A stretch of DNA of 64,000 nucleotides from Rhizophagus irregularis (lineage: Eukaryota; Glomeromycota; Glomeromycetes; Glomerales; Glomeraceae), in assembly GCF_026210795.1 (NCBI RefSeq), contig NC_089429.1, positions 6,047,001 to 6,111,000 of the forward strand, read 5' to 3'. Positions 3,640 through 57,404 of this stretch are shown one piece after another. A model generated the notes under the pieces. That model searched no databases. It had not been told where the DNA came from and saw only the letters and a program-made list of their open reading frames with translations. The first letter of the stretch is position 1. Each line of letters starts with the position of its first letter. The position numbers and the translations under genes are program-made.

Positions 3640-3980
3640 TCTCTCAAAAACGAAAATCTCGTATTAAATGATCAGCAAGAAATTTTTCCTTTTGGAAACC
3701 GGATACTGTACACCCGTGTACAAGTACGAATATTAGTCATATTTATTTTATTGTTAAACTTTTAAGGCAAACATTAATTATAATTTTATTTTTGTAATTC
3801 ATAAAAAAGATACAGGATATAAATAGTGACTCGAATTATTAAGCAATTTGATAACAAGTAAACTAGAAAATTTTATATTACAAATAAATAGGATAAAAAT
3901 GATTTTATAACAATAAATTTGAATGAAGAACCAAATATTTGCACAATATTTTTAATCCCTAACCAAACCCGACGATAAAA

Positions 3981-3999
3981 TTCACATATAGTATGTGAA
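3981..3999 (-). promoter_or_regulatory. 3' hairpin after CaaX copy A
   Basis: Inverted repeat TTCACATA / TATGTGAA with a 3-base loop, 12 bases after the stop codon. The equivalent position of copy B has a slightly longer version, so it is retained in both arms. It may act in 3'-end formation or mRNA stability; that role is inferred. Confidence 0.4.
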
Positions 4000-4011
4000 A
4001 ATTATATTTCA

Positions 4012-4343
4012 TTACATGCCCGTACAAGAAGATTTAGTACCCACACCTTCCGGACTTTCAGTGACTCCAGCAGGACCCCGAAATATATATGTAGAGGTCA
4101 GGTTCAGAAGTGGTCCAAAATACGCATTCTTTCAGGGCCGGAATTACGATAATTTCAGCCATTATCTAAATTAGGAAATATTATTTTGGCTGAGATTATC
4201 CATAGAAGGAATGATCTACATGATTTTTTTGACTCATTATACGCAAACTTTGACCTGACCCTTTTATGTATATTTCGGGGTCCTACTCCAGCAGTTGCGA
4301 TAGATGGAATAGATAGTTTAATGATAACTTCAGTTTGATTCAT
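4012..4343 (-). pseudogene. CaaX-box small peptide gene, copy A, split by a MITE
   Basis: The ATG at 4343 opens with MNQTEVIIKLSIPSIATAGV, identical to copy B (the first 59 coding bases match exactly). The frame is then broken by a 213-bp TIR element (4072-4284) whose 8-bp target duplication lies inside the codons for Ala-Gly-Val. Beyond the element the remaining codons continue in register and end SSCTGM before a TAA at 4014-4012. Discounting the insert and one TSD copy, the gene has the same 36-codon length as copy B. The C-terminus is Cys-x-x-x; Gly at the second 'a' position is a weaker prenylation signal than copy B's Val. The gene as it stands would give an aberrant, longer product from 4343. 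It may be a recent knock-out. Confidence 0.7.
4072..4284. mobile_element. hAT-type MITE, 213 bp, 8-bp TSD ACTCCAGC
   Basis: TIRs begin AGGACCCCGAAATATA at both ends and stay similar for about 30 bp (inner part AGGTCAGGT). The perfect 8-bp duplications ACTCCAGC lie at 4064-4071 and 4285-4292. The pre-insertion site is visible uninterrupted in the other arm of the duplication, which confirms the boundaries. It carries no coding capacity. An 8-bp TSD is characteristic of hAT transposases. Confidence 0.9.
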
Positions 4344-4487
4344 TTTGTTTGGAAATTTAAAGAATTTAATTGATTTTAAGAGTTTGTTAATTGTTATGTA
4401 AAAAGAACTATCAAAGTTTTTTTCTTTTTTTTTGATTGAATTTAAGGCTTATTTTTTCTTTTTGTCTTTATAAGAAAATTTTTTGTT

Positions 4488-4495
4488 TATTTATA
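4488..4495 (-). promoter_or_regulatory. TATA-like box of CaaX copy A
   Basis: TATAAATA on the minus strand, about 145 bp upstream of the ATG, in a stretch conserved with copy B where the same octamer sits at the matching place. Sequence conservation and the consensus are the only support. Confidence 0.4.
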
Positions 4496-4655
4496 TCTTT
4501 TTCATAGATTTAAAACTTTTGAGTTGAAAGATTTTTAATATTGTATAATATTAACAATATACAATAGATTTTTAATTTAGAAAATACTTTTACATTATGA
4601 TTCTGTGATATTTTTTAAAATTCAGTATAAAATACCATTCAACATATAGGAGGCA

Positions 4656-4758
4656 GTCAGTAGAAAAGGGGGAAATTACCACTATGATAAAACTTAGTAA
4701 GACAATGATTGTTCATTATGTGATTAGTAATGGGCAGTTTTCCCCCTTTTCTACTGAC
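4656..4758. mobile_element. Miniature inverted-repeat element, 103 bp
   Basis: The left end GTCAGTAGAAAAGGGGGAAA is matched by its complement at the right end (TTTCCCCCTTTTCTACTGAC with one extra T), nearly perfect over 20 bp. No clear target duplication. It lies in the spacer between the two CaaX genes. Confidence 0.6.
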
Positions 4759-4761
4759 CGC

Positions 4762-5408
4762 AACAGGGCGGACATCCCCATATTATCACGATATTGCCGA
4801 TCATTTTGCCGATCACTTGTCCAATATTATCACATTAAAAAATACCGTTGAATTAGTTTTTTCACAAATTCTACATAATAATGTATAAAATTTCGATTTT
4901 TATTTACTTTATTTTATTTATTGTTAATAAATTAGTTCTTAAAATAATTCATAAAGATTTTGTCAAATATCAGACATATATTAATTTTACAATAATTGTA
5001 AACATTTATTTAATGATAACTTTTGGGTTATCAAAAATTATCCAGGTTTATTTTAGCCATTGATTCTTGAATACCTAAATAATATACTGTAAAAGTTTCA
5101 AGTTTCGCCCGAAGATCTGTGGCTTCGCCCGAAGCTTCAAAGTCACGTTAGCAGATGATCGGCATATATATAGCATATATATTAATTATTGAAAATTTGA
5201 CGTAAAATCTAACTTTGGAAACACACCTTATTTTGCCACAATACTTTTATATTAATTTATTGATAAATGAAACTATTAAATAAAATAATTTAACATAAAT
5301 TGTCAGAACATTTATTGCTTGGAATAAAGCTTCAAATTTAACGTGATATCACTTATATCATGATCGGCAAGTGATCGACATTGTGATATAATGCATGTCC
5401 GCCCTGTT
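4762..5408. mobile_element. TIR element with AACAGGGCGGACAT ends
   Basis: The left end AACAGGGCGGACAT recurs inverted at the right end, and the inner 40 bp (ATCAC, GCCGATCA, GATCACTTG motifs) also match imperfectly. It abuts the preceding MITE. A third related end (GCGGACATCCCTATTTTATC) starts at about 5425, suggesting a second, partial copy. The internal plus-strand frame at 4881-5063 is AT-rich, hydrophobic and unrecognised. Confidence 0.55.
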
Positions 5409-5531
5409 TCCGTCACGCAGCATAGCGGACATCCCTATTTTATCACAATTTTGATGATCATTTGTCGATCATTTGCTGATCATTTATTCAGTTATATCAC
5501 ATAATATAAATGCTGTTGATATACTAATTTG

Positions 5532-5711
5532 TCGAAAAAGTCAATAATTTTGGAAGTACAAGTAACTAAAGATAGCAGTCTCCTACAGTCCTACAGTACA
5601 TACAAAAGGTTCACGTAGGACCGCAGTCTTTTATGATCATGACAGCTATTTGTAAGACGGAGTGACTGCTATCTTTAGCTACTTGTACTTCCAAATTATT
5701 ACCTTTTTCGA
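5532..5711. mobile_element. Fold-back MITE, 180 bp
   Basis: Long inverted ends, about 47 bp, include GGAAGTACAAGTA, CTAAAGATAGCAGTC and an outer TCGAAAAAG. The element could fold into a long stem with a short loop. No TSD is recognisable and nothing is encoded. Confidence 0.65.
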
Positions 5712-5955
5712 GACCATGCTCAATACCAAATATTGTTAACACAGTCGCACAGAATCATGATGAAAAATAATACTAAAAGTATTGTCTAAATGAAAATCTA
5801 TTGTATGTAGTTATCGTTATAAGATTTAGGTGCTTGTTTCAAGTGTGAACCGCAAAATTTGGCGTATTGTAGATCAATTGCTATTATGTTCTAAACACGG
5901 AGATGCACAATATTAAAAATCTTTCAACTCAAAAGTTTGAAATCTATGAAAAAGG

Positions 5956-5963
5956 TATAAATA
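5956..5963 (+). promoter_or_regulatory. TATA-like box of CaaX copy B
   Basis: TATAAATA about 150 bp upstream of the ATG, inside sequence conserved between both copies. A candidate core promoter only. Confidence 0.4.
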
Positions 5964-6108
5964 AACAAAAAATTTTCTTATAAAGTCAAAAAGAATAAAA
6001 CAAGCCTTAAAATTCAATCAATTCAATCAAAAAAAAAAGACTTTTGATAATTTTTTTTTACATATTAAACCCTTAAAATCAATTAAATTCTTTAAATTTC
6101 CCAACAAA

Positions 6109-6219
6109 ATGAATCAAACTGAAGTTATCATTAAACTATCTATTCCATCTATCGCAACTGCTGGAGTCACTGAAGGTCCTAATCCTAATCCTACTAAAAC
6201 TTCTTGTACGGTCATGTAA
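6109..6219 (+). CDS. Small CaaX-box peptide (pheromone-precursor-like), copy B
   Basis: A 36-residue frame with a good start context (ACAAAATGA). It begins MNQTEVIIKLSIPSIATAGV, continues through a Gly/Pro/Asn-rich stretch (TEGPNPNPTK) and ends TSCTVM. The last four residues, Cys-Thr-Val-Met, fit a CaaX prenylation box, and Met in the last position is favoured by farnesyltransferase. Very short precursors ending in CaaX are the known architecture of lipopeptide mating pheromones in Dikarya. Here the N-terminal half would be the leader and the C-terminal dozen or so residues the mature prenylated peptide. The N-terminal half is identical to copy A, while the C-terminal third differs in about half its residues. 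No pheromone receptor or mating gene lies in the window, so function is inference. The alternative is a non-coding conserved segment with a chance frame; identical length in both copies argues against that. Confidence 0.6.
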   Translation: MNQTEVIIKLSIPSIATAGVTEGPNPNPTKTSCTVM

Positions 6220-6231
6220 TAAAATATAATT

Positions 6232-6250
6232 TTCACATACTGTATGTGAA
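6232..6250 (+). promoter_or_regulatory. 3' hairpin after CaaX copy B
   Basis: TTCACATAC and GTATGTGAA separated by one base, 12 bases after the stop, matching the hairpin after copy A. Possible 3'-UTR structure. Confidence 0.45.
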
Positions 6251-6545
6251 TTTTATCATCGGGTTTGGTTGGGGATTAAAAATATTGTGCAAATATTTGG
6301 TTCTTCATTCACATTTTTTATCCTATTTATTTGTAATATAAAATTTTAATACACTGTGTCCAAAATTTATTAGTTTACTTGTATTATTAACTATCAAATT
6401 ATTTAGTATTTTTTATTCCATTTTTATATTTAATGAATTACAAAAATAAAATTATGAAAAAGTTGCCTTAAAAGTTAACAATAAATAAATATGACTAATA
6501 TTGGGTTTCAAAAAGGAAATTTCTATTCTGATTATTTAATACGAA

Positions 6546-7854: not shown

Positions 7855-9282
7855 CTAGTATTGGTACCTTTCTACCAACCTATCGTGCTCAGCAGTCCAG
7901 TAAAAATTCCTTTCGCTATGATAATGTGGTGTAAACTTTATTGGAAGTCTATTTTTACTTTTCCAATCTTTTAGGAAGTTTTCCACCCCTTCTATCGAGA
8001 AATTCCATTTATCACTAAATGAAATATTTCGTAACTTATTGAGCGGGGAATTATTTATAACTTTTAATAAATCATTTCCAGTAGGTAATACTTTAACTGG
8101 TGTTGTAAAATATATTTCCTCCAATTGTTTACAATTTGAGAACATCATGCTTAATTCATCTAAATTTTTATGGTCAACATCTATGGTTAACCTCGTTAAT
8201 AAAGGGCAGTTTTTAGATATCGTTATAATTAAATTTTTATTTTCGGTCGTATAATCTAAAAACTTGAGTGATTGACGTGAATCAATCTCTAATATTTTCC
8301 CACCGGATTTTTCGATTATCAAACTTTCAATATTAAATGGTAAGCATGAAGTTTGGAGACGTGTAAGGTGAGGGAATTTTTTAATGTTGTTTAAGCACTT
8401 TTCCCATTCTTGCCAATCTATATATTTATTTAATTTATTATTAAGAGTTATTTCTAATATATTTTCTAAGGACTGAATAAATATAGGTGAAACACAATTT
8501 AGTGTTGGTTGTAAAGTAATGTTTTTTAATGTTGAACCTTTTTCTCTGATCACATTACTTAATAATGTGCAGGTATCTTTCACATTATTATTAAAATCCA
8601 GAAACAAGGATTGCAGTTTATTTTGATTTTTAATAAACTTAATTAAGGACTTTTTATCTTTATCTCTACCACAATTACTTATCACTAATTTAGAGATATT
8701 TAAACAAATTTTGGAAAGGTCGGAAAAATTTTGATTGGTTATGAACTTCCAATTAATTTCAAGTGAATGTAAGTTTGAAAAAAAAGATTGCGCGTTTGGA
8801 TATTCACACAAGTTTTTTTCAACTTCCCAAGAAAAATGTTTAACGTTAATACATTTACTAAAAATTAATTTGTAAATTTCTCTTTCCAAAATTTGTTTTT
8901 TGTGGCTATGATTCTTATGATTCTTGATTAAAAGATGTGCCATATCTATGATCCAAAATGGCGTGATACGAATGAAAAATCTCATATAATCAAATGTTGG
9001 CATTCTTGATAATTTATTCAATGGTAATATGATATTATTTTGGGGCAAAGGATCTACCGGATCATTTGGCAGAAAATGTGCTATTACGTTGTAAAGTTTT
9101 GAACGTGATTCTGGATTATAGAGGAAAGGATTATCGTAAGCATATGAAATATGTCTCCATAATATAGGTGTAGCTATGTTAAACCATTCTTTATTAACCA
9201 AAAGGCATGAACGCAAGGAAACGGGATCATCCTTCAATTCGGTAAAAATTAACAAGAGAACGTCTGGAACAAGTTGAGCCAT
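7855..9282 (-). CDS. F-box / LRR-like protein, full length (475 aa)
   Basis: Single-exon member of the large Glomeromycotina F-box family. The start is taken at the Met of MAQLVPDVLLLIFTELKDD, because the F-box sits at the very N-terminus in the three paralogues here; the frame is open for 25 more codons upstream but those look like untranslated sequence. Residues 1-45 form the F-box (LLLIF, SLRSCLLVNKEWFNIATPIL). The rest is a series of leucine-rich, LRR-like repeats with conserved pieces such as IDWQEWEKCL, ESLIIEKSGGK and NCPLLTRLTIDV, which recur in the 53.6-kb paralogue. F-box proteins link substrates to Skp1-Cul1 ubiquitin ligases; the substrate is unknown. It keeps a C-terminal segment (ending LVERYQY) that the 21.8- and 53.6-kb paralogues lack, and is probably the most complete of that subgroup. 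Confidence 0.85.
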   Translation of the reverse strand: MAQLVPDVLLLIFTELKDDPVSLRSCLLVNKEWFNIATPILWRHISYAYDNPFLYNPESRSKLYNVIAHFLPNDPVDPLPQNNIILPLNKLSRMPTFDYMRFFIRITPFWIIDMAHLLIKNHKNHSHKKQILEREIYKLIFSKCINVKHFSWEVEKNLCEYPNAQSFFSNLHSLEINWKFITNQNFSDLSKICLNISKLVISNCGRDKDKKSLIKFIKNQNKLQSLFLDFNNNVKDTCTLLSNVIREKGSTLKNITLQPTLNCVSPIFIQSLENILEITLNNKLNKYIDWQEWEKCLNNIKKFPHLTRLQTSCLPFNIESLIIEKSGGKILEIDSRQSLKFLDYTTENKNLIITISKNCPLLTRLTIDVDHKNLDELSMMFSNCKQLEEIYFTTPVKVLPTGNDLLKVINNSPLNKLRNISFSDKWNFSIEGVENFLKDWKSKNRLPIKFTPHYHSERNFYWTAEHDRLVERYQY

Positions 9283-9410
9283 GGAAAGAAATAGATATAT
9301 ATGATAAATAGTATGTGAATAATGTGAAAAAACAATAGTAGTATAAAGTATAAACAAATAGTATGATATGAAAAAATGTTAAATATCAAAAATTACAAAA
9401 TAACGATCCA

Positions 9411-21761: not shown

Positions 21762-22775
21762 TTATAAATCATTTTCAAAGATTAATTTATATTGGTCATT
21801 TAAAAGAGTCATTGATTTAAACTTGTTGGTATATTTTAATATCAAAAAAGATTCTAACACATTGGTTAAGCATGACATTTCAAAGTATCTTAGTTTTGGA
21901 AAATCAGCCTTGCTTAAATAGTAACTCCATACCTTAGTATATCGAGATAATTGATTAACATAATTGTTAAGGACTAAATATTCTAAATTTCTTAATGAGA
22001 GAAGAAATTTAGGAGAAATAGATGTAACAGATGATTTTATTGTTAATCTTTTTAATGTAACAGCTTTCCCTTCAATTGCTTCGCTTAAGTACACGAGTTG
22101 TTCTCTTACATCACACAAATGCAAGCATAAAGATTGTAGTTTAGTCTGCACGTTAATAAAATGAAGTAAACCCAGGCAATCTCTGTTACATTCATTAATC
22201 TCTAAAGTTACTATATTTTGGCAAATCCGAGCTAATTCATATAATATTGTTGGATTCGCGATTGTTAGACTTATCCCTAAAGAACTTAAATTGGCGAAAA
22301 ATGGTTCGGCATTTGGAAACAAGTGTAAGGAGTGATATGTACTCCAATAGAAACATTTTACATTCTTACAATTATTGAAAATCACCTTATATATTTCTTC
22401 CTCCAACATATTTTTTTTATAATCATAAATTTTAGCTTCCTTCTCCGTCGTTACTGATTGCACTATATCATTAACAAAAGTAGGGGAAATGTGAGTGAAA
22501 AAAGTCATATAATTAAATATTAATTGTCGGTTTGAAGGTAATTTAAATCCATTTTTGAATAAAGGACTTTCTGATGGTAAAAAATATGATATAACATCGA
22601 AGACTTTATTGAATGAAATAGAATCTTCATGGGTATAATAAAGAGATCTCCATAATATAGGCATTGCTAACGAAAACCAGGATTTATTTACTAAAACACA
22701 TGAATGCAAAGAAGAAGGATCATCTCGCAATTCGTTTAAAATTAATAATAAAACATCTGCGACAAGTTGTACCAT
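21762..22775 (-). CDS. F-box / LRR-like protein A, C-terminally truncated (337 aa)
   Basis: The start is the Met of MVQLVADVLLLILNELRDD, aligned with paralogues; 35 upstream in-frame codons are ignored. An N-terminal F-box (LLLILNEL, SLHSCVLVNKSWFSLAMPIL) is followed by LRR-like repeats (LYELARICQNIVTLEINEC, LRNLEYLVLNN). The frame stops about 130 residues before the end of the 475-aa family member at 7.9 kb. A piece of the lost tail (LIIISCNSCG, like LIITISKNCP) is still readable on the same strand near 21635-21695, so the gene lost its 3' part through a deletion or frameshift. It may be expressed as a short protein that keeps its Skp1-binding end, or be an early pseudogene. Confidence 0.6.
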   Translation of the reverse strand: MVQLVADVLLLILNELRDDPSSLHSCVLVNKSWFSLAMPILWRSLYYTHEDSISFNKVFDVISYFLPSESPLFKNGFKLPSNRQLIFNYMTFFTHISPTFVNDIVQSVTTEKEAKIYDYKKNMLEEEIYKVIFNNCKNVKCFYWSTYHSLHLFPNAEPFFANLSSLGISLTIANPTILYELARICQNIVTLEINECNRDCLGLLHFINVQTKLQSLCLHLCDVREQLVYLSEAIEGKAVTLKRLTIKSSVTSISPKFLLSLRNLEYLVLNNYVNQLSRYTKVWSYYLSKADFPKLRYFEMSCLTNVLESFLILKYTNKFKSMTLLNDQYKLIFENDL

Positions 22776-22884
22776 TGTTAATGATAAGATAAAGATAAAA
22801 TGAAATTTTGAAAATTTGGGATGATTATAAAAATGATAAAATTGTATGAAAAATAATGATAAATGCATGAAAGTTAACAACTGT

Positions 22885-22894
22885 ATTTATATTA
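22885..22894 (-). promoter_or_regulatory. TATA-like element upstream of F-box A
   Basis: AATATAAATA on the minus strand behind AAATTTTT, about 115 bp before the ATG, matching the arrangement at the other F-box genes. Confidence 0.35.
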
Positions 22895-49627: not shown

Positions 49628-50974
49628 TTAACAATAAAAATCTGTAAGTTCACCAAGATATATATTACTTGATTTTTCCAAAATTTCTGAGCTTTTTAAA
49701 TAAGGTATAGAATCATTAAAAATCTTAATGTTTTTTAGACCAGTTGGTGCTGATCTATTTAATATTCTTAATAATTCTTTGATATTTTCTGCCCCTTGCT
49801 CATAATTCCCACAATTATCATCAATAATTAAATTTAACTTCTTCAAGTTTTGACAATTTCTTAGTAATATTTCAAATTCAACAAAATGTTCCAGTGATGA
49901 TGGGAACACCAACATTAATACTTCAATTATAGGGCAATTTTCATAGATACTGCTGATTAATAAAAGAGTATCTTTGGTGTAGTTTTCATAATGATAATCA
50001 TCATCATAATAACTATTATAATTTGGCAATATTTCCTTAATATATCCACCACTATTAGTGATTATATTAATTACCGCATTCATATTTATATAATCTATAT
50101 GAAGTATTTCTAGATTATAATATATCGGCAGTAATGTTTCATTCTTTGAGCAATACTTATTGAGTATTAACGTTTTCAACTTGTGAAATTTTGGTAGTAT
50201 TCTGAATAACATATGTTCTTCATGATAAAGTAATTGGAAGTATAATATTAAATGATTTATCATATCTGACTTTTTCTCTAAAGCGAGTATTATCTTGGTA
50301 TAAGGGTCATTCGTAATATTATGTTCGGTTTTAAAATCATCTGTCCATTTAAAATATCTTAAAATTTTCTGAACTTTAATTAATTCAACTACTCCATCAT
50401 TTACGTTATGAGTTTTATTAATAATGATCAACCTCTGTATATTTTGACAGTTATATGCTAATCCACAAAAGTATGAAGGATTAGTAGATGTATCGCACGT
50501 TAATTCACAAAGTGATTCAAGAAGAGCCTTAGTTTCTGGAAGATAAAATGAAAGCATTTGATGATCAATTGATATCATATTTAAATACTTCAAATTTGTA
50601 CATTGTCTTATTAAGAAACTGCAAATTTTTCGTTGCAAAGAAGGTTTAATCATAGAAATTATTTTTTTTATAATTTCTATATTAATGCAATTGCAGAAAG
50701 ATAGATAATTAAATGAAAGTTGTTGGTATGAAAAAAGTAAGTGACTTGGTAATAATATTTTAATATCTTGAGGTAAATAGAAACAAATAATGTTGAATAA
50801 AGAATTTTTATTACTATAAGTAATATTGTACTGCCAAGGGTTTTTCCATAAAATATGAACTGCGATTTCACACCAAAGTTTATTGATCATTAAACACGAA
50901 AATAAAGTTTTTGGATCATCTTGAAGTTCTTCAAGTATTAAAAAAAGAATATCACTATTGTATTTAATAGCCAT
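49628..50974 (-). CDS. F-box / LRR-like protein B, intact (448 aa)
   Basis: The start is the Met of MAIKYNSDILFLILEELQDD, giving the F-box at residues 5-45 (LFLILEEL, LFSCLMINKLWCEIAVHILW). LRR-like repeats follow (CTNLKYLNMISIDHQ, NCQNIQRLIIINKTHNVNDG, LPKFHKLKTLILNKYC, NCPIIEVLMLVFP, NCQNLKKLNLIIDDN). It diverges from the 7.9/21.8/53.6-kb subgroup. It is the functional-looking partner of the shattered plus-strand copy at 24-26 kb in the other arm of the inverted duplication. Probable role: substrate receptor of a Skp1-Cul1-F-box ubiquitin ligase. The N-terminal extension of 14 codons is regarded as untranslated. Confidence 0.85.
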   Translation of the reverse strand: MAIKYNSDILFLILEELQDDPKTLFSCLMINKLWCEIAVHILWKNPWQYNITYSNKNSLFNIICFYLPQDIKILLPSHLLFSYQQLSFNYLSFCNCINIEIIKKIISMIKPSLQRKICSFLIRQCTNLKYLNMISIDHQMLSFYLPETKALLESLCELTCDTSTNPSYFCGLAYNCQNIQRLIIINKTHNVNDGVVELIKVQKILRYFKWTDDFKTEHNITNDPYTKIILALEKKSDMINHLILYFQLLYHEEHMLFRILPKFHKLKTLILNKYCSKNETLLPIYYNLEILHIDYINMNAVINIITNSGGYIKEILPNYNSYYDDDYHYENYTKDTLLLISSIYENCPIIEVLMLVFPSSLEHFVEFEILLRNCQNLKKLNLIIDDNCGNYEQGAENIKELLRILNRSAPTGLKNIKIFNDSIPYLKSSEILEKSSNIYLGELTDFYC

Positions 50975-51053
50975 TTTATTTTGTTTTAGGGGGGAAAAAA
51001 AAAAGATTGATAACAAAATTTAATAATGATAAAAATGAAGGGTAAAAATCCAT

Positions 51054-53568: not shown

Positions 53569-54771
53569 TCAATTTACATATTGTTCATAATCCTTACTAT
53601 TAAGTACATCTTTAGTATCGGACATATTATTATTTTCTTTTGTATAATAAATTTTTTTCAAATGTACACAATTTGAAAAAATATTACCAACTAAATTCAA
53701 ATTATTAGGATTAATGACCATAGTTAATCTTATTATTTTTGAACAATACATAGATATAATGTTAATTAATGTTTCATTTTCGATTAAATAATCTCGAGAC
53801 TCAAGTGTATGACGTATATTAATTTCTGAAATTTTGCCACCAGATCTTTCGATTATTAAGTATTCAATATTACATGGCAAGTATGAAGTTTCTAAATATT
53901 GTAAATTTGGAAAAAAGGACGTTCTTAAATAGAGCTCCCATTCTTGCCATATTATACTATTATAAAATTCACCATCATCATCATTATATAAGATTAAATA
54001 TTGTAAGTTCGTTAATGATGGAAAAAAACTGGGTGAAATTAATGTGATGGTTAATCTCAAAATGATTTTTTTTAGCGTGATAGCATTACTACCAATCATA
54101 TCACTTAATTGTTCACACAAAAGTGGTAGATTATTTTTCATTCTAATAAATGAAATTAAATCATCATTATCCTTACTATTTATTACTTCAAGGTCTGCTA
54201 TATTTTGACAATCTATAATGGCTAAAAGTTCTGGAATCATATATTCTACATTTATTTTCAATTGACGTATGCCGGAAAAAAATTCTTTTACATTTGGACA
54301 AAATAAAAACAAACTTTTATTTTTAATCCAATCGAAATACTTTATATTTTTACATTTGCTAAAAATAAATTGATATATTTCAAATTCAAATACATTTTCT
54401 TCGTGAACAGAAAGAGAATCCGTCTTAATCGAAAGTTGTACCATATCTTCAATCCAAATCGGTGAAAGATAGGTAAAAAAATCCATATAATTAAATAATA
54501 ATTTATTTGAAATTGGATTTGAAGGTAAATTAATATTTAATTCAGACAACTTATCTTTTGGAAGAAAATGGAAAATTATATTATATAGTTTTTTACGTGA
54601 TTCTATTTTATGAACATAAGGATTATAAGAATAAAAAAAATATTTCCATAAAATTGGTATTGCCAAACAACACCAAGTTCTGTTCACTAAAATGCATGAA
54701 TATAACGAAGCGGAGTCAAACCGCAATTCAGTTAAGATCAATAGAAGAATATCATCGATAAGTTTTGTCAT
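53569..54771 (-). CDS. F-box / LRR-like protein, slightly truncated (400 aa)
   Basis: MTKLIDDILLLILTELRFDS starts the F-box (residues 1-45; SLYSCILVNRTWCCLAIPIL). It is close to the 475-aa protein at 7.9 kb: shared blocks include ESRKKLYNIIFHFLPKD, WQEWELYL, NIEYLIIERSGGKISEI and NIFSNCVHLKKIYY. Two differences stand out: an in-frame gap of about 13 residues in the middle (NNLPLLCEQLSD against NKLQSLFLDFNNNVKDTCTL), and loss of roughly 60 C-terminal residues, the frame ending SKDYEQYVN. It may be functional because the F-box and most repeats remain, or it may be decaying. Confidence 0.75.
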   Translation of the reverse strand: MTKLIDDILLLILTELRFDSASLYSCILVNRTWCCLAIPILWKYFFYSYNPYVHKIESRKKLYNIIFHFLPKDKLSELNINLPSNPISNKLLFNYMDFFTYLSPIWIEDMVQLSIKTDSLSVHEENVFEFEIYQFIFSKCKNIKYFDWIKNKSLFLFCPNVKEFFSGIRQLKINVEYMIPELLAIIDCQNIADLEVINSKDNDDLISFIRMKNNLPLLCEQLSDMIGSNAITLKKIILRLTITLISPSFFPSLTNLQYLILYNDDDGEFYNSIIWQEWELYLRTSFFPNLQYLETSYLPCNIEYLIIERSGGKISEINIRHTLESRDYLIENETLINIISMYCSKIIRLTMVINPNNLNLVGNIFSNCVHLKKIYYTKENNNMSDTKDVLNSKDYEQYVN

Positions 54772-57404
54772 TATTAATGAAGAAGGATAACGATAGAAAT
54801 TATTAAATTGTAAATAAATTATGAGTATTAAATTGTATGAAAATAAAAAGTATGAAACAGTATGAAACGATAAAATATAACAAACGAACTCATGCTTAAT
54901 TTATAATGTTTGTTAAATTTATGGGTTGTACACGTGAGAGACGAAAAACATGAATTTTGATCTACTAACAATAAAAAACCCAAAAAACCCCTTTGTAAGA
55001 TGATTATTTTAATTTCTTTGTATAAAGAATCTGATATTTTGTTAATCATAAGCTGATTATTAAACTGATTGTTTAAAATCATCATACATAATTATCAATC
55101 TAAAGTGATCCGAATGAATCCATTTAGGGTTATATTGAAATGTACAAGTACTAAGCCACTTATTTTTTTATGAGAACAAATCAGAGTTTTTGTTTATCGA
55201 AGTGATTTGATCCGATTTTAATGAAAATTTATAGTAAAAAAAAAATATCATATTAGAAATCCATTTATGATTTTATTGAAAGTACATAATTTTCCTATAT
55301 CCGGTAAATCCGAAAAAGCTCGGATTTTCTAAGAAAATTTTTATATTAATTTGTACTATTGTTGTAAAATTTTTTTTTTGAAATTTCTTAACTTTCTTCA
55401 ATCCTTTATAAAGAAATCCAGTTTCAAACATAGATTTAATAACCGAATCCAATAACAAAAATAACAAAATAAGTAATTTCGTTGATTACAATTTTAGACG
55501 TTAATTAAATAATAAGACAATATCAGATATGGATTTTTGAAACTTAAATATTATATGTCAGTGAAGTAAGTCCATTGTTCTGTATGTAGATCATTATTTA
55601 TGGACGTACGTAATGCATGTCTGAGATTTTAAATATGGTTACATTTTTCAATTACCAAAAGGTGGAGGTCAAAAATTAAATTTGAAATATGATTTTTTTT
55701 TTTTTTTAAACTGTACTACACAAGTGAAGTCTTGAACATCTTTTTTTTCTTTAAAAAATGATAAAATGAATAAATTCCGGTAATGGTTAAGAAGTGCCAT
55801 TTTTGTATTTATTATAAAAGTTCCGTCAGAGAAGTTTGAATCTTTTAAATGAAGAAAATTCATGTAAATCCAAAGAAAAAAAAATAATTGTGAAAAAGGA
55901 AAACTGCTTTGAGGAGCAAAGAATGGTAGGCGGATAAATTGTTTAGGTCGCACATACATGAATGGTCCATGCACGTGACCCGGATGATGATCTTCGATAA
56001 ATTTTTTTTAAACGTATTTCTTTATTAGTAAAATGTGAAAGAACAAATTACATATTAAATACAAAAAATATATTGAAATTTAGTGAAACATAAGTTTGCC
56101 CTAAATCTCACCATATCAAAATCTTCGTATAATAAAACGAAATAGCAATTAATTAAATATTTGGAACTAAATTATATATATTCTATGTAGTATTGACTAA
56201 ATTACTAATTACTTTGTTACCCATTAATCTAAATACGTCATCTTTACAGTAGGAATTTAATATGGTAATAATTAGTTAACAAAAAATTTATAAAATAATA
56301 TGTATTAAATTATATTTACAAAATAATGTAGCTATTTATATTAATGATTTGACGTTTGAGTGTAGAATGAAATTCGGATTAATTAAGGAATTGTGAAAAA
56401 ATAATTATCAATAAAAATTGATTAATTTTTTAGAAGTATTTTCTAAAAAACTTTAAATATTATGAAAATACTACAAATATTTTTATTAATTAATTATAAA
56501 TTTTATAATTATTTCTTATTATTTTATATTACGTCAATCTTAAACTTATAACCAACTTAGGAAAAATATTTGAACAATTAAATTTATTAGAATCCGTTCA
56601 TTTCATTTATTATTATTCTTCTTTTGATACTCATTTTACTCGATAAATTATTAATTTAACAGAGAATTTCGGATATGGATTTGGTTATAATAATCTATTA
56701 TTATTAAATTAACAATTTCTTCAATTAATTGATTATAAAATATTGTAAAAATATCTTTTTTTTTTTTGATTTTTATGAATTTGAAAATCAAACTATTTAT
56801 CCAGCGTTCAATTTAATTGAAAAAATCTTAATCATCTTTCTATCAACGTCGGTCAATTTTCCTACATGTCATATTGATTTTTTTAAAAAATAATAATTTT
56901 GTAAATATATTTAATATAATATTTTATTTCTTTATTTAATAATAATAAAAATTGAAAGAAAAAGAAAAAAAATTAAAAAAATATTGGGGAAAGAAAAAGG
57001 ATAAAGAAAGAAATCGGTTTAAAAAAAAAGGGAAACTTCCGAAAAAAAAGGAATCCGAAAAAAAAATAAGTACCGAAAAAATTCCGAAAAAAAAGGACAA
57101 TAATTCGATCCAAAAATTAAAGGACAAACTTTATTTTATTAATTAAACCCCTCTTATCATTCGATCCTTACTGAATGCTCCTCATTACATGTCTATATAT
57201 ATCTGATATATAAAAGTTCTAATAAAAATATCTAACATATAGCTATATTAAATATATTAACTAAATTAAACATAAACATATTTAATATATCGCATATGCA
57301 GCATTTGGAACATTGATCGTTAACGCCGAATTTGGTCACGTGATCGATCGTTTGCTACAATAGCGTTAATCATTAAAAAAATAAAAAGAAAATTTTCCTA
57401 AACT
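54772..57404. other. Intergenic, low-complexity, no gene
   Basis: Very AT-rich. Short frames here are low-complexity; the long A/G-rich run at 56950-57120 opens frames on both strands but is not a gene. Contains one copy of a dispersed repeat (56025-56150). Confidence 0.5.
56025..56150. repeat. Dispersed repeat, copy 1
   Basis: Direct-oriented relative of 58690-58815: shared words ATATTGAAATTTAG, CACCATATCAAAATCT and TAAATACAAAAAATA. Copy 2 lies next to an RRM-like retroelement fragment, so this may be its non-coding end. Confidence 0.65.

Follow-up and report, generated by a model that had tools for sequence, protein, structure and literature searches.

Does a head-to-head pair of very short reading frames, both ending in a CaaX box, represent genes for prenylated mating pheromones in an arbuscular mycorrhizal (AM) fungus? 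The question arises from a 64-kb stretch of the genome of Rhizophagus irregularis DAOM197198 (C1:6047001-6111000; "the window" in the following), for which a preliminary description had proposed such a pair in a Glomeromycotina-like genome. The assignment to this group is correct. Having searched the 146.75 Mb of the genome (32 contigs), we find that the window contains one intact member of an R. irregularis family with at least 30 intact micro-genes, and a second member that a MITE has inactivated. Judged from the architecture of the predicted products and by analogy to known systems, this family probably encodes precursors of prenylated Ste3-type lipopeptide pheromones, i.e. pheromone-like ligands most likely for the single Ste3 of the fungus.

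The intact gene, a member of what we term subfamily A, comprises 36 codons on the plus strand (6109-6219), encodes MNQTEVIIKLSIPSIATAGVTEGPNPNPTKTSCTVM and has two stop codons (TAA TAA) directly after its last codon. Its mature part is predicted near PNPNPTKTSC, with prenylation expected on C33. The second copy is located on the minus strand (frame 4343-4016) within an inverted duplication, the left arm of which (3867-4544, minus strand) includes this copy, its promoter and its 3' flank, while the right arm spans positions 5907-6347 of the plus strand; complementarity of the arms is 94-100%, in blocks. The 5' part of the minus copy (4285-4343, minus strand), which starts with MNQTEVIIKLSIPSIATAGV and covers codons 1-19 of the leader together with most of codon 20, is identical in DNA sequence to the plus copy. 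Its 3' part (4013-4071, minus strand), ending in ...TESPEGVGTKSSCTGM and a stop codon, follows after an insert and includes the second target duplication. This insert is a palindromic, hAT-like MITE of 213 bp (4072-4284) with the TIR AGGACCCCGAAATAT and the 8-bp target duplication GCTGGAGT. As the MITE splits the frame, the minus copy is dead: it is interrupted after codon 20, the frame as it stands extends 62 aa into the insert, and only with the insert removed would the empty site read MNQTEVIIKLSIPSIATAGVTESPEGVGTKSSCTGM and comprise 36 codons. Of the two diverging 36-codon frames described originally, the plus frame is thus intact and the minus frame is arranged head-to-head as proposed, but the latter is broken by the MITE; the CaaX ends reported for both copies are present (MNQTEVIIKLSIPSIATAGVTEGPNPNPTKTSCTVM-stop and ...TESPEGVGTKSSCTGM-stop).

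The MITE appears to be a recent arrival, since at least 40 other copies with 97-99% identity were identified in the genome (from 482 first-look candidates). Two more palindromic MITE-like inserts, with arms CAGTAGAAAAGGGGGAAA and TTTGGAAGTACAAGTA, are present in the spacer between the two gene copies (4647-4760 and 5549-5695). The window also contains four minus-strand frames (7855-9378, 21762-22886, 49628-51019 and 53569-54900) that by eye look like related F-box/leucine-rich-type proteins. An Rfam scan of the window gave no match.

A lone CaaX end is weak evidence, because 7 of the 217 ORFs of 25-45 aa in the 64-kb window (3.2%) have a Cys at position -4. For the family as a whole, a chance CaaX end is ruled out by the Cys being kept in 30 intact paralogues, among them two groups whose leaders are different. 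Searching the genome at the protein and the DNA level, we found no fewer than 30 intact ORFs with a length of 28-38 aa, a count to be taken as a lower bound, which fall into three subfamilies with distinct leaders and are dispersed over at least 13 contigs (C1, C2, C5, C7, C9, C10, C15-C18, C20, C21 and C26). All 30 terminate in C-(T/P/S)-(I/V/L)-M-stop, with Cys at -4 throughout. Subfamily A (22 intact copies, 33-38 aa) is characterized by the leader MNQTEV(I/T/V)IKLSIPSI(A/T)TAE(V/A)TEKP with minor variants. Subfamily B consists of six intact genes on contig C17 (3.3276-3.3408 Mb; MNPITVVTKPPTTEVTEGPTEKTGNCTIM and variants, 28-29 aa), laid out as three head-to-head pairs with a spacing of about 1 kb, and subfamily C of two intact genes, MNPTTITSKPIVIVTSEVTEKPGNPTNSCSIM on C18 and MNPTTIITSKPVIIVTSEVTEKPGNPTNSCSIM on C26. 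B and C, likewise CaaX-terminated, were reached stepwise from A by weak homology. An upstream element common to the subfamily A promoters and conserved among them (AAACACGGAGA..TGCACAATATTAAA; 5893-5922, plus strand, in the window) led by a relaxed match to a decayed, Cys-less copy (L071, C10:1147k) and a search with this copy led to B; a search with B then gave two sub-threshold matches (E = 1.7 and 3.1), both of which were complete ORFs of the same plan when read.

Several members have decayed, in subfamily A the window minus copy, L023 (frameshift) and the relics L050-L053, in subfamily B L071, L074 and L081-L083. L071 (C10:1146803-1147107) still has its ATG and TATA intact but lacks the Cys (MNPITYVAKPPTAKVTEKPVTIM), and may be a decayed or possibly a repurposed precursor. 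Length changes between paralogues are in-frame and are mostly found inside the variable segment. A recent A group (GESGG) was amplified as dispersed repeat units of about 1.7 kb, in which we found no sharp ends that would mark an element; several older A copies share a stretch of only about 0.6-0.8 kb. Since one A group has spread in such units, some of the copies may owe their existence to repeat amplification. Head-to-head inverted pairs recur in the family, with three on C17 (3327608-3340789), one on C10 (2498029-2500429) and one in the window (4013-6219), an arrangement that could promote gene conversion or the sharing of promoters.

A Pfam scan with four family members gave no match at E<=10. 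Neither prokaryotic genomes nor viral contigs yielded relatives; as these sets contain no fungi, this result is uninformative on other AM fungi. In the literature searched, we found neither an account of the micro-gene family in R. irregularis nor any report of AM-fungal CaaX pheromone precursors, and the family is previously undescribed.

Substitution patterns indicate that selection targets the peptide. In the subfamily C pair, 9 of 23.3 synonymous sites (pS 0.39) and 2 of 72.7 nonsynonymous sites (pN 0.028) differ, corresponding to an omega of 0.07 (Fisher p = 2.5e-5), whereas the flanks of the two genes are 33-48% diverged. Comparison of the plus-strand window gene with eight older paralogues gave omega values of 0.07-0.21 for the alignable leader and CaaX codons; among close A subgroups, changes were too scarce for other pairwise tests to be meaningful. 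Across 14 recent A copies, coding sequences differ by 0.75% with 0 indels; the corresponding values for windows in the flanks are 1.2-17% and, per pair, 0.8-5.6 indels, these indel counts being inflated by low-complexity A/T tracts. The sole replacement codon in the coding sequence of these copies is codon 26, located in what is predicted to be the mature part. The window pair shows 0/60 differences in leader codons 1-20 and 10/24 in codons 25-32, the predicted mature part (9.7 replacement and 0.3 silent by NG86), compared with 12/235 in ungapped flank blocks (p = 2e-6 versus the mature part); some of the minus-copy changes could post-date the insertion because this copy is dead, which is a small caveat given that the MITE looks young. 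The Cys is present in all intact copies. In leader codons 8-17 of every subfamily A copy, the DNA is nearly invariant including silent sites (AAACTATC(C/T)ATTCCATCTATC). Such invariance exceeds what protein constraint alone would need; it may reflect gene conversion or an additional function.

Upstream of the plus copy, a TATA-box region (5950-5985, plus strand) has TATAAA at about -153 and -130 from the ATG, and nearly all A copies as well as both C genes carry TATAAA at -118 to -160. This near-fixed spacing describes what appears to be a transcription unit. Short exact fragments of the family promoter motif were absent from the 10 kb surrounding the STE3 gene (see below).

The predicted precursors share one plan: a conserved leader, a mostly conserved charged dipeptide, a variable segment of 5-11 residues before the Cys, and the C-terminal CaaX box. 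The dipeptide is E-K (in VTEKP) in most A members and both C members, but subfamily B and the window pair have E-G or E-S at this place. The precursors of 28-38 aa appear to have no clear signal peptide; in a hydropathy check, the 12-mers with the highest hydrophobicity in subfamilies A, B and C contain Lys and have Kyte-Doolittle values of 0.3-1.7. Should the leader be cleaved behind the charged dipeptide or at an equivalent position, the intact genes would yield about 13 different short peptides: PNPNPTKTSC, PEQKKDANFEC, PVDSGIKAGGSC, PKAITDC, PGDSGGC, PQDDGGC, PGESGGC, PGQSGGC, PSDAAGIQC, PGDGNNQAGGC, PTEKTGNC, PEKTSNC and PGNPTNSC. The pheromone-precursor architecture put forward in the preliminary description from two copies is much strengthened by some 30 paralogues in which the leaders are conserved, one segment is variable, the CaaX Cys is invariant and constraint acts at the protein level. 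Among the paralogues, the conserved frame is the one proposed and the C-terminal Cys is retained.

Is the machinery for making and perceiving such peptides encoded in the same genome? We found one intact STE3 gene (C13:4767083-4768006, minus strand; locus L065, C13:4767083-4768036), whose product of 586 aa after splicing of one short intron matches PF02076 with E = 1e-62; a comparison by sequence with solved structures gave no match. At a distance of about 16 kb lies a gene for a Ste24-type CaaX protease (L072; C13:4751006-4751624) with PF16491 and PF01435, the latter including HELGH. With one pair placed at random in 147 Mb, the probability of such proximity is near 2e-4, and the neighbourhood could be a remnant of a pheromone-related locus. 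No family member was found on C13, the STE3 contig, and KN homeobox genes were found on C12. An ICMT gene and three prenyltransferase beta-type loci were detected as well, so that, of the genes that had been suggested for a search, the receptor (STE3) and most of those for processing (Ste24, ICMT and prenyltransferases) are present. For AM fungi, an expressed Ste3 (represented by ESTs) and an orthologue of Ste6 have been reported, while no gene for an a-factor or alpha-factor was found (Halary 2013; PMC3834313).

We infer a pathway that would start with transcription of a gene for a 28-38-aa precursor. Met at position X of a CaaX box favours the farnesyl group, and the CaaX Cys would most likely be farnesylated. 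Removal of aaX by Ste24/Rce1 and methylation of the exposed Cys by ICMT would follow, the leader would be cleaved near E-K, and the resulting short lipopeptide would leave the cell via a Ste6-type ABC transporter, to be perceived as a pheromone-like ligand, most likely by the single Ste3. These steps are modelled on a-factor and on the pheromones of basidiomycetes (PMC8305134, PMC8545103, PMC7288658).

What such a signal would convey is a separate matter. Mate recognition, self/non-self sensing before hyphal fusion and host-directed signalling are possible roles, mating being one of several. The presence of about 30 ligand genes and one receptor in a haploid genome does not immediately suggest a mating switch between two types. 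A single receptor facing 13 or more different mature peptides, as predicted here, is unusual, which counts against the pheromone reading. There is a substantial, though somewhat less than even, chance that the genes encode prenylated secreted lipopeptides with a non-mating role, be it self/non-self recognition before fusion, chemotropism or signalling to the plant host, with Ste3 being optional. This overlaps with the pheromone reading, which leaves the biological role undecided between mating, hyphal fusion and others. Many dispersed ligand genes combined with one receptor per genome are unlike a two-allele mating system, and some authors regard R. irregularis as probably asexual (PMC11414155). 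Ste3 receptors of Colletotrichum sense non-pheromone cues (PMC12445352, PMC11491335). Mushrooms, too, have Ste3-like receptors with suggested non-mating functions. On the other hand, the architecture of the precursors is that of Ste3 mating ligands, and diversification of the mature part, as seen in the window pair, suits mate recognition as well as self recognition.

The peptides might also stay inside the cell as small prenylated, membrane-anchored regulators rather than act as secreted signals. We consider this unlikely: the size of 28-38 aa, the variable segment before the Cys, the charged dipeptide and the multiplicity of genes are pheromone-like, and we know of no intracellular precedent for a CaaX micro-precursor of such form, even if CaaX motifs as such also occur outside pheromones (PMC10569646). 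A dispersed repeat or transposable element with an incidental 36-codon frame, for which the ~1.7-kb units of one A group with their flank divergence of 2-17%, the dead minus copy and the decay of several other copies could be quoted, is highly improbable in view of coding sequences with zero indels and protein-level constraint as well as two low-copy subfamilies with different leaders and CaaX ends, and is largely refuted by the omega of 0.07 in the C pair while its flanks diverge by 33-48%.

We return to pheromone-like precursors as the preferred reading, and with it to AM-fungal mating, a long-standing question in a group where R. irregularis was long thought asexual. Whether an early-diverging, supposedly asexual lineage has an expanded, fast-diversifying family of prenylated pheromones together with a single Ste3, outside any P/R locus, is to our judgement evenly balanced. 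The Ste3 receptor and its pathway were known from AM-fungal genomes and the ligand had not been found earlier (PMC3834313); the CaaX family provides candidate ligands. About 13 defined candidate peptides could be synthesized as farnesyl methyl esters and assayed on Ste3, on spores or in hyphal fusion between isolates, making the pheromone question testable without transforming R. irregularis. If the reading is true, the AM-fungal pheromone pathway would thereby gain its first family of ligands, and Ste3-lipopeptide signalling, which may be older than the Dikarya, would extend beyond them. The micro-genes also point to a gene class likely to be missed by gene prediction.

Among known systems, the precursors of basidiomycetes (Ustilago mfa1/mfa2, MFA of Cystofilobasidium and Phaffia, mushroom phb/phl) resemble the R. 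irregularis family in being short and CaaX-terminated, with no clear signal peptide (as seems to hold for R. irregularis), a charged dipeptide (E-K in most R. irregularis members), a short predicted mature part, several genes per genome and a Ste3-type receptor. They are 41 aa long in Cystofilobasidium and 53-72 aa in Coprinopsis/Schizophyllum, compared with 28-38 aa in R. irregularis, and the processing dipeptides listed for mushrooms are ER/DR/EH/NH/EE/DE, a list that does not include E-K (PMC8305134, PMC8545103, PMC7288658). The R. irregularis family differs by the lack of detectable sequence similarity, by X being always Met, and by E-K, E-G or E-S followed by Pro as its motif. In contrast to the P/R loci of basidiomycetes, its genes are dispersed over at least 13 contigs, with none found on the receptor contig, and about 30 of them face one receptor.

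The a-factor of ascomycetes (S. cerevisiae MFA1/2 and a putative a-factor of Leotiomycetes) likewise combines a CaaX or CPaX end with a cytoplasmic precursor, as is probable for R. irregularis, and a Ste3 receptor, but the copy number in R. irregularis is far higher and its leader is unrelated. Neither the Gly-Tyr motif nor the N-terminus rich in Ser/Thr that have been noted for Sordariomycetes is evident. Precursors of the a-factor type have only the CaaX end in common and are hard to detect by BLAST (PMC10569646), so the absence of similarity to known precursors is usual for such genes. In R. irregularis itself, KEX2-processed repeat peptides of an alpha-type-like kind (PMC6339444) are likewise putative signalling peptides, but these have their own signal peptide, repeats and KEX2/STE13 sites, none of which is apparent in the CaaX family with its CaaX box instead. 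Finally, the AM-fungal pathway described by Halary 2013 (Ste3, Ste6 and a MAPK cascade; PMC3834313) includes, in the same genus, the receptor and exporter that such ligands need; it came without a pheromone gene, a gap that the CaaX micro-gene family could fill.
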